The notes under the pieces: model-generated
Databases searched by the model: none
What the model was told of the DNA's origin: nothing
Seen by the model: the letters and a program-made list of their open reading frames with translations, nothing else
Translations under genes and position numbers: made by a program
From: Pseudomonadota bacterium
GTDB lineage: Bacteria; Pseudomonadota; Gammaproteobacteria; Xanthomonadales; Xanthomonadaceae
Reading direction: 5' to 3'
Assembly (NCBI GenBank): GCA_019348095.1
Contig: JAHWKC010000197.1
Location: 1 to 5,016, forward strand
DNA length: 5,016 nucleotides
Shown here: positions 1 to 1,694 of the stretch, one piece after another
Numbering within the stretch: position 1 is the first letter of the stretch
Layout of the letters: each line of letters starts with the position of its first letter

Positions 1-554
1 ACCAGCAGGTTCTCGACACCGGCGCCCATCGCCACCAGGAACATCCGCTCCTCGGCCCGCGACCGCCGCTCGTCGGGGTAGTCGTGAGCCCCCTCGCGCA
101 CCAGGCACGGCACGACCAGCGACGGCGCGGCCCGCAGGACGTCACCGCGCCGCAGCCGCTTCTCGATGCTCTCCTGCGAGAAGCCGTCCGCCCGCAGGTC
201 GCGCGCCCACTGCGCCGCCATGGCGTCGAGCAGCTCGGTCGCCCGCTCCTCGACCAGCACGAAGCGCCAGGGCGTCGTGTGGTGCGGGGCCGGCGCGGTG
301 ACTGCCGCCGCGACGGCGCGCAGCACGACCGCCCGGTCCACCGGGCGGTCGTCGAAGGCGCGGACGGTGCGGCGCAGCGCCAGGGTGCTGCGGTGTGCCT
401 CCGCGGTGCCGAGGCCGAACCAGTCCTGCTCCGGCGGGCGGACCAGCGCCTGCGCGCTGCGGCCGTCGTCCGGCAGCGCGAGCCCCCGCACGACCGCCAC
501 CGGAACGCCGTCAGCCTTGCCCTTCACCAGCTCGGCCGCGGCGGCGAGCTCGTC
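1..554 (-). other. fbiB: FbiB (coenzyme F420:L-glutamate ligase / F420 reductase) fragment, both ends missing
   Basis: Residues about 381-564 of the moxR frame match FbiB. First comes the end of its CofE-like ligase domain: DELAAAAELVKGK (381-393), VPVAVVRGL (397-405), then RPPEQDWFGLGTAEA (419-433). Next is the start of its FMN-binding nitroreductase-fold domain: LRRTVRAF (440-447), TAPAPHHTTPWRF (466-478), the acidic/basic helix around 495-515, VVPCLV, then GAHDYPDERR and MFLVAMGAGVENLL (551-564). I recall the same blocks in the same order in Mycobacterium tuberculosis FbiB (448 residues), where the ligase adds glutamates to F420-0 and the C-terminal domain reduces dehydro-F420-0 with FMN. 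Roughly the N-terminal 200 residues of FbiB are missing, and the last 50-60 would lie left of the window. F420 synthesis by a two-domain FbiB is typical of Actinobacteria and is not expected in the Xanthomonadaceae-like host suggested by the rest of the window. Confidence 0.88.
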
Positions 555-1694
555 GATGAAGCTCTCCACGGCGAAGGCGGTATGGGTATGCGCCACGGAG
601 CGCCAGGGCCCGCGCGGGATGGCGGCCGAAATGTTCGCGAACTCCAGGCGGCGGTGGGGGATGCGGTACGGCATGTCCACCGCCCCGCTCACGTCGCCCG
701 CGTGCAGGTTCTCCGCGTCCGGGCCGGCGTCCGACTCGCGGAGCGACGTCGAGGCGACGCGGTGGCGCAGCGCCGGTTTGGCGATCGCGCGGATGTCGTC
801 GGGAGTGACAAAATCACGCCCGTCCAGCACCGCCTGCGCGCGCGCCGCGCGCACCAGCGCCAGGCTGCCGCGCGGGCCGGCGCCCAGGGCGATGCCGGGC
901 CAATCGCGGGTGGCGCCGACAATCCGCACCGCGTAGTCGACCACCGCATCGTCCACGGTCACCAGTGCCGTGCCGTGCTGCATCGCGACGATGCCGGCCG
1001 GACCGATCACGCGCTGCACCATGGAGAGGTCGAAGTCCGCCGCGCTGCGGCCGTGGCTGATCGCGGCAACCATGCGGATCTCGTCGGCGCGGCTCGGGTA
1101 GTCGATCAGCACCTTGAGCAGGAACCGGTCGAGCTGCGCTTCGGGCAGCGGATAGGTGCCCTCCTGCTCGACCGGGTTCTGCGTGGCCAGGGTCAGAAAC
1201 GGCGGCGGCAACTCGAAACTGGCGCCTTCGATCGTGACCTGGCGCTCGGCCATCGCCTCCAGCAGCGCCGACTGGGTTTTCGCCGGCGCGCGGTTGATCT
1301 CGTCGGCCAGCAGCAGGTGGGTGAACACCGGGCCACGGCGGATGTCGAAGGTCTCGGTTTTCGGATTCCAGGCGGCATGGCCGCTGATGTCGCTGGGCAT
1401 CAGGTCGGGGGTGAACTGCACCCGCGCATAGCTGCAGTCCAGCGCCCGGGCCAGCGCGCGCACCAGCAGGGTCTTGCCCAGGCCCGGCACGCCTTCGATC
1501 AGCGCATGGCCGCCGGCCAGCAGCACGATCAGGATCTGGTCGAGCGCCTCGGCCTGGCCGATGAAGGCCTTGGCGACTTCGCCGCGCACCGCCTGCACGC
1601 GTTCGGCGAGCGCGGCGCCGGTGACCGGCGTGGCCGCCGCGGCAGCAGCGGCATCTGCACCGCCGGTGGCGGGCGCGGAAAAGTCGGTCGTCAT
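1..1694 (-). CDS. MoxR-family AAA+ ATPase, C-terminus replaced by IorB-like and FbiB sequence (chimeric ORF, open at left edge)
   Basis: One reading frame runs from the ATG at 1692-1694 (ATGA overlap with the DUF4350 gene, weak GAGA at 1703-1706 upstream) to the left edge without a stop, giving 564 codons. Residues 1-25 are an Ala-rich linker. Residues about 27-314 are a normal MoxR ATPase: Walker A GVPGLGKT (68-75), Walker B LLLADE (127-132), sensor 1 TQN (171-173), arginine finger LDRF (188-191) and lid sensor 2 GPRGS (273-277). All catalytic residues are present. MoxR proteins act as chaperone-like ATPases that remodel or mature protein complexes, usually with a VWA or DUF58 partner. The family normally ends about 20-30 residues after ALRHRVA (308-314), with a motif I recall as LAPELQIEG. 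Here that tail is absent, and residues 315-564 match two unrelated enzyme families. The MoxR identity is near certain to residue 314. The downstream part is very probably an artefact, so the true moxR 3' end and its DUF58 neighbour are missing. Confidence 0.85.
   Translation of the reverse strand, partial: MTTDFSAPATGGADAAAAAAATPVTGAALAERVQAVRGEVAKAFIGQAEALDQILIVLLAGGHALIEGVPGLGKTLLVRALARALDCSYARVQFTPDLMPSDISGHAAWNPKTETFDIRRGPVFTHLLLADEINRAPAKTQSALLEAMAERQVTIEGASFELPPPFLTLATQNPVEQEGTYPLPEAQLDRFLLKVLIDYPSRADEIRMVAAISHGRSAADFDLSMVQRVIGPAGIVAMQHGTALVTVDDAVVDYAVRIVGATRDWPGIALGAGPRGSLALVRAARAQAVLDGRDFVTPDDIRAIAKPALRHRVASTSLRESDAGPDAENLHAGDVSGAVDMPYRIPHRRLEFANISAAIPRGPWRSVAHTHTAFAVESFIDELAAAAELVKGKADGVPVAVVRGLALPDDGRSAQALVRPPEQDWFGLGTAEAHRSTLALRRTVRAFDDRPVDRAVVLRAVAAAVTAPAPHHTTPWRFVLVEERATELLDAMAAQWARDLRADGFSQESIEKRLRRGDVLRAAPSLVVPCLVREGAHDYPDERRSRAEERMFLVAMGAGVENLL
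534..554 (-). other. Chimeric junction 2: IorB-like to FbiB, in a shared DELAAAA motif
   Basis: These 21 bases encode D-E-L-A-A-A-A. The motif closes the ESFIDELAAAA helix of IorB-type subunits and opens the DE(L/I)AAAA(D/E)LVKGK segment of FbiB/CofE. Sequence to the right is IorB-like and to the left FbiB, again in frame. A shared run of about 21 bases is long enough to join two genomes in a short-k-mer assembly graph. Confidence 0.75.
753..767 (-). other. Chimeric junction 1: MoxR to IorB-like, in a shared RHRVA motif
   Basis: These 15 bases encode R-H-R-V-A. MoxR proteins carry ALRHRVA near their C-terminus, and IorB-type subunits carry a (W)xHR(I/V)(V/A) motif shortly before the variable loop that precedes PYxIPN. 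Sequence to the right is MoxR and to the left IorB-like, and the frame is kept. The exact crossover cannot be placed within the shared run. Confidence 0.7.

Follow-up and report, generated by a model that had tools for sequence, protein, structure and literature searches.

Gene content of contig C107

The window, the whole stretch of DNA analysed here, is the complete contig C107 (5,016 bp) of a draft genome of 480 contigs (72.11% complete, 1.4% contamination) that is presumably a metagenome bin. Its minus strand carries, between bases 3 and 1694, a single frame of 564 residues without a stop, which is incomplete as a protein in that it runs out at contig base 1. The rest of the contig is native (Table 1). 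Its SpoIIM, DUF4129-like, DUF4350 and moxR genes form a run with touching or overlapping ends (window 1691–5015) that is kept across Lysobacteraceae; the second gene is presumably DUF4129-like, as in other operons of this kind.

Table 1 Features of contig C107 and of the matching end of contig C101.
Feature	Position	Strand	Basis
fbiB piece, frame residues 381–564, ~184 of the native 432	3..554	-	92% identity to P0122
Probable seam 3, inside a strongly conserved fbiB stretch (VTAPAPHHTTPWRFVLVEER)	246..305	-	Mismatch step against P0122
Seam 2 zone, codons 381–387, DELAAAA	534..554	-	Common to the IorB and FbiB families in frame
IorB-type molybdopterin-binding oxidoreductase subunit piece, ~75 residues (313–387)	534..758	-	58–60% identity to P0002–P0006
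Seam 1 zone, codons 306–312, KPALRHR	759..779	-	KPALRHR in MoxR; (G)KPLA..HR or (G)RPLA..HR in the closest IorB-type proteins
moxR piece, residues 1–312 of the native 342	759..1694	-	97% identity to P0242 (342 aa)
Native DUF4350 gene, upstream of moxR	1691..2818	-	Pfam DUF4350; order as in relatives
Native DUF4129-like gene, 540 aa	2815..4437	-	Without a Pfam match; order as in relatives
Native gene of the SpoIIM family, running off the contig end	4434..5015	-	Pfam SpoIIM; order as in relatives
C101 left end, chimeric (L063, G000 C101)	1-450		Other-strand stretch, then 2-hydroxyacid dehydrogenase, then DUF58

The frame is differentiated into three parts, for which we searched protein databases by region (residues 1–330, 300–400 and 385–564, listing the best 120 of 8,000, of 196 and of 7,104 homologues, respectively). 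The first is a MoxR ATPase whose best match among those listed for residues 1–330 (best 120 of 8,000), P0242, comes from Lysobacter sp. D1-1-M9/Novilysobacter. Its AAA_3 core is present in full at residues 63–193 (PF07726, 131 of 131 profile positions, 209.7 bits), and the lid, AAA_lid_2 at 261–322, begins at profile position 2 and stops at 63 of 74. The 30-residue tail that should follow is replaced; these last residues are present beyond the departure point in all 33 relatives' loci.

The middle part has no Pfam match, including to the PF02738 and PF20256 domains expected of an IorB-type subunit. It aligns at 60% identity to residues 454–538 of the 735-residue P0002, one of the five best IorB-type matches (P0002–P0006, 735–744 residues, 58–60%), two of which are named Rhodothermus (best 120 of 196 listed). 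The third part belongs to FbiB, the coenzyme F420-0:L-glutamate ligase with a nitroreductase-like C-terminal domain. Its closest match among the best 120 of 7,104 listed is P0122 (432 residues, 92% over 385–564), and the named relatives in that list are Frankiales and Mycobacteriales, with 84% identity to a Frankiales genome (L046). The piece is cut 5′ by a seam and 3′ by the contig end, and its domain matches are correspondingly partial: Nitroreductase at 441–564 (profile 4–127 of 167), the ligase domain PF01996 only at profile positions 186–218 of 218 (19.3 bits against a cut-off of 25), and the NCBIfam equivalogs PRK13294 (frame 379–564, profile 195–386 of 449; 272.8 against 304) and TIGR03553 (188.6 against 249.55), the last three scores all lying under their cut-offs.

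A preliminary description, made from the sequence alone, had divided the 564-codon frame into MoxR to about residue 314, without its C-terminal tail, some 75 residues of an IorB-type subunit, a tenth of the normal protein, and FbiB. Pfam, NCBIfam and alignments uphold the three parts and their order, the lengths of the IorB-type parents agree with a tenth, and the lost tail is the one kept in the relatives' loci. The borders required refinement, to 312 for MoxR, 313–387 for the middle part and from 381 for FbiB (residues 381–387 align with both of the latter). Nor is the frame complete, and the FbiB part is probably two pieces.

Seams and reading frame

At seam 1, native MoxR goes on HRIALAPELQIEGQ to 342 residues, and the window leaves it after residue 312 to take up the IorB-type pattern (HHRLVSTS...GPD). 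Among the listed proteins, 95 of 120 MoxR (best 120 of 8,000) contain KPALRHR, and 25 of 120 of IorB type (best 120 of 196) have HR close to the seam. As the known relatives of the IorB donor are distant, this seam is placed only to about 20 bases, and an exact word shared there by both parents is no more than putative. At seam 2, the closest IorB-type proteins go on DELAAAAGRDPLAYR, and the window leaves them inside DELAAAA and takes the FbiB continuation ADELAAAAELVKGK. DELA is found in 117/120 IorB-type and 120/120 FbiB matches listed (best 120 of 196 and of 7,104), the longer DELAAAA in 28/120 of the former and DELAAAAELV in 52/120 of the latter.

Comparison with P0122 suggests a third seam inside the FbiB part, which is likely composed of two pieces: there are 13 mismatches in residues 388–465 and none in 466–564. 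The 119 other listed FbiB matches average 14.4 and 16.8 mismatches in these stretches, with at least 6 in the second. P0122 was itself chosen as the best match, so this step supports a seam but falls short of proof.

Strand and frame are kept at both main seams, an outcome expected for about 1 in 36 blind joins and thus a point against an accidental chimera. The frame would have stayed open because each seam word, read in one phase, yields an identical or similar peptide in either parent; such common peptides would account for its being kept. Counting words shared between coding sequences, strand and phase agree for 896 of 3,743 12-base words (24%, against 17% if even), 27 of 130 15-base words (21%, fewer than the 37 words in one of the shifted phases) and none of four 18-base words, in a small mixed sequence set with overlapping words counted separately. 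Such a weak general phase bias hardly explains the kept frames; shared seam peptides are the better account.

Relatives, the native gap and other contig ends

The closest named relatives among the matches listed differ from part to part (Lysobacteraceae for MoxR, Rhodothermus for the IorB-type part, Frankiales for FbiB), so that a single contig unites DNA from distinct taxonomic sources; Rhodothermus and Frankiales each fall in a phylum other than that of Lysobacteraceae. No homologue among the 360 listed (120 per region) has a Pfam set mixing the three families. A scan of named genomes returned 25 loci, 20 of them moxR of Lysobacteraceae (Lysobacter, Vulcaniibacterium, Pseudoxanthomonas and Xanthomonas) and the other five an unspecified gammaproteobacterial moxR, two Treponema moxR, a Frankiales fbiB (84%) and an Algoriphagus IorB-type gene. 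Among 148 other genomes of the family, a moxR match at E ≤ 1e-120 is present in 70. Stop-free matches reach query residue 343 at most, and each of the eight that extend beyond residue 346 crosses an in-frame stop; stop-free matches beyond 343 were found neither in these 148 genomes at this threshold nor among the matches listed for 39 other genomes of the order. One candidate, L037, aligned to query residues 17–374 and was set aside as not three-part, since its moxR carries the usual 30-residue tail and then a stop. Comparison at genus level comprised the window's own genome only.

Within the draft, a full IorB-type protein matched only the C107 piece, and full-length FbiB matched only the C107 piece and, weakly as a nitroreductase, contig C19. 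A search of plasmid DNA gave partial matches in ten records, all inside the moxR part, none covering 80% of the query. In a Curtobacterium plasmid record (NZ_CP045288.2, 136446–137308), a stretch is 81% identical to the window's Lysobacteraceae-type moxR DNA, reflecting either transfer or a mixed record.

In relatives, the gene order is SpoIIM, DUF4129-like, DUF4350, moxR and DUF58 wherever the stretch reaches that far. DUF58 matches downstream of moxR in 32 of 33 loci, the exception (L023) being a contig that ends 83 bases after moxR. The draft's own DUF58 gene lies on contig C101, so the true continuation of the C107 operon is found elsewhere in the same assembly. It is 78% identical to a relative's and is matched from residue 47, its 5′ part being absent. 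In its place, the 545-residue C101 frame carries a 39-residue piece of a 2-hydroxyacid dehydrogenase (2-Hacid_dh_C at 112–150, profile 113–151 of 178), joined in frame to DUF58 at LAGAAL. The stretch before the dehydrogenase piece we read as coding on the minus strand, presumably for a secretin-like protein. Of the 32 loci in which the native distance between the C107 and C101 break points is measurable (33 taken, some possibly the same genome twice), 25 have 188–275 bp and the other seven 358–665 bp, and the two contigs anchor at neighbouring sites of a comparison genome, G012 (1,788,285 and 1,794,206). Both contigs therefore break at one short native gap and consist of foreign sequence beyond it, and we consider the C101 evidence decisive for a chimera. 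The short native stretch between the break points was not found in the draft.

We then consider the other contig ends of the draft, for which Pfam was run on 39 of 40 terminal longest frames (20 contigs, C101 and C107 excluded). Choosing the longest frame favours in-frame joins, and frames without a family are uninformative; 17 of the 39 match a family at E ≤ 0.001, though for two, the right ends of C98 and C103, only under the Pfam cut-off. Unlike families are joined in two of the 39, and the other 15 family-bearing frames show no such join. At the left end of C112 (L082, G000; 2–2347, plus strand), a 782-residue frame clearly joins families foreign to one protein: Condensation/AMP-binding, PepX_C, epimerase and tRNA-synt_2b/HGTP_anticodon, with NCBIfam reporting non-ribosomal peptide synthetase pieces and thrS. 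At the right end of C96 (L068, G000; 3554–5134, minus strand), one frame runs from a sodium:solute symporter (SSF) piece into the latter half of a BCCT transporter, a likely join of unlike families, although SSF and BCCT are both transporters of one fold. Given these two mixed frames, the trouble reaches beyond C107. Elsewhere, an S-layer homology domain, possibly foreign, lies at the end of C99 (L071, G000; 13777–14913, minus strand).

Mapping of contig ends used 22 contigs (C95–C116, with the first 20,000 of the 24,316 bases of C111) against 2.0 of the 4.16 Mb of G012, and 13 of the 22 have a blastn match. At the protein level, a loose profile extended over the very end of C107 already recognized as foreign, and a strict one starts at base 692 on C107 and misses the native DUF58 of C101. 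The contamination score of 1.4% is low, though short foreign pieces need not raise it.

Origin of the frame

The 564-codon frame, which lies at a contig end of a fragmentary Lysobacteraceae draft, is almost certainly an assembly chimera, its IorB-type and actinobacterial-type fbiB pieces most likely coming from other organisms. The preliminary description had suspected a chimera made in two steps, a suspicion strengthened by the differing lineages, the truncation of every part and the chimeric C101 at the matching end. It had proposed comparing the taxonomy of the separate parts, which our region-wise searches did in equivalent form, with Lysobacteraceae, Rhodothermus and Frankiales as nearest named relatives; the same three-part protein in other genomes, which it named as a finding that would overturn its view, was sought and not found in the genomes of the order and family or among the listed homologues.

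As a mechanism, native coverage would have given out in the interval from moxR codon 312 to the first part of the DUF58 gene, and the assembler may have walked from both sides of the gap into reads of other species, stepping at short shared words: KPALRHR or HR, DELAAAA and the conserved FbiB stretch on C107, and LAGAAL on C101. A chimera made before assembly, with PCR or whole-genome amplification joining DNA of different cells and the assembler faithful to it, is an unlikely but serious competitor, as template switching would also place seams at short shared words, and several contigs are affected. We prefer an assembler error in view of the successive joins to different lineages at these ends: two or three of them at a single end are better suited to a low-coverage walk than to independent physical chimeras, as is the failure of C101 at the same native gap, although this is not decisive.

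Biological origins fare far worse. A real MoxR–nitroreductase fusion, with fbiB and an IorB fragment inserted horizontally behind moxR in a Lysobacteraceae strain, would explain one open frame with strand and phase correct at both seams; we reject it as extremely improbable, since all three families are truncated, the nearest relatives lie in three phyla, the draft's DUF58 is on another contig with a foreign end of its own, and no relative with the architecture appears in the genomes and listed homologues searched. A real but functionless rearrangement, a pseudogene left by illegitimate recombination within the genome of the strain, would fit the short peptides common to the parents at the seams, but it has hardly any probability, since ~760 bp would have to draw on two or three foreign donors and a comparable event would have to recur on the far side of the same native gap.

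Under an assembly chimera, the frame holds no new protein and is an ordinary artefact. The earlier warning against annotating a novel MoxR–nitroreductase protein was justified; recognizing the chimera averts that annotation, and the fusion label should not be used. A multi-domain open frame gives no protection against chimerism, even at a contamination score of 1.4%, and collections of domain architectures built on such drafts would take over false fusions. More tentatively, false fusion genes may arise systematically in this draft (C107, C101, C112 and probably C96). Contig ends might then pass through several foreign genes at words coding for the same peptide, with joins tending to be in frame, a suggestion of equally limited strength. 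We rate this systematic reading lower because 15- and 18-base words show no phase bias. Were it true, gene callers would return intact-looking multi-phylum fusion proteins from such ends; were it general, a share of the ‘novel domain fusions’ in draft catalogues would be artefacts, recognizable by shared peptides at their seams.

Compared with known systems, C107 agrees with the Lysobacteraceae SpoIIM–DUF4129-like–DUF4350–MoxR–DUF58 operon in MoxR residues 1–312 and the upstream order, but lacks the last 30 MoxR residues and the DUF58 gene that follows. Its likeness to the IorB-type xanthine dehydrogenase family molybdopterin-binding subunit extends over 75 residues (58–60% to the five best matches), only a tenth of that protein. 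With FbiB it has 184 residues in common (92% to P0122), whereas the ligase domain is for the most part missing, as are the last ~60 residues. The closest parallel is with the chimeric contigs of drafts, chiefly metagenome-assembled, as described in one account (PMC10978663): there, too, DNA of several organisms lies on one contig. C107 differs in that its joins keep one frame over at least two seams, from which gene calling would yield a plausible-looking fusion protein.
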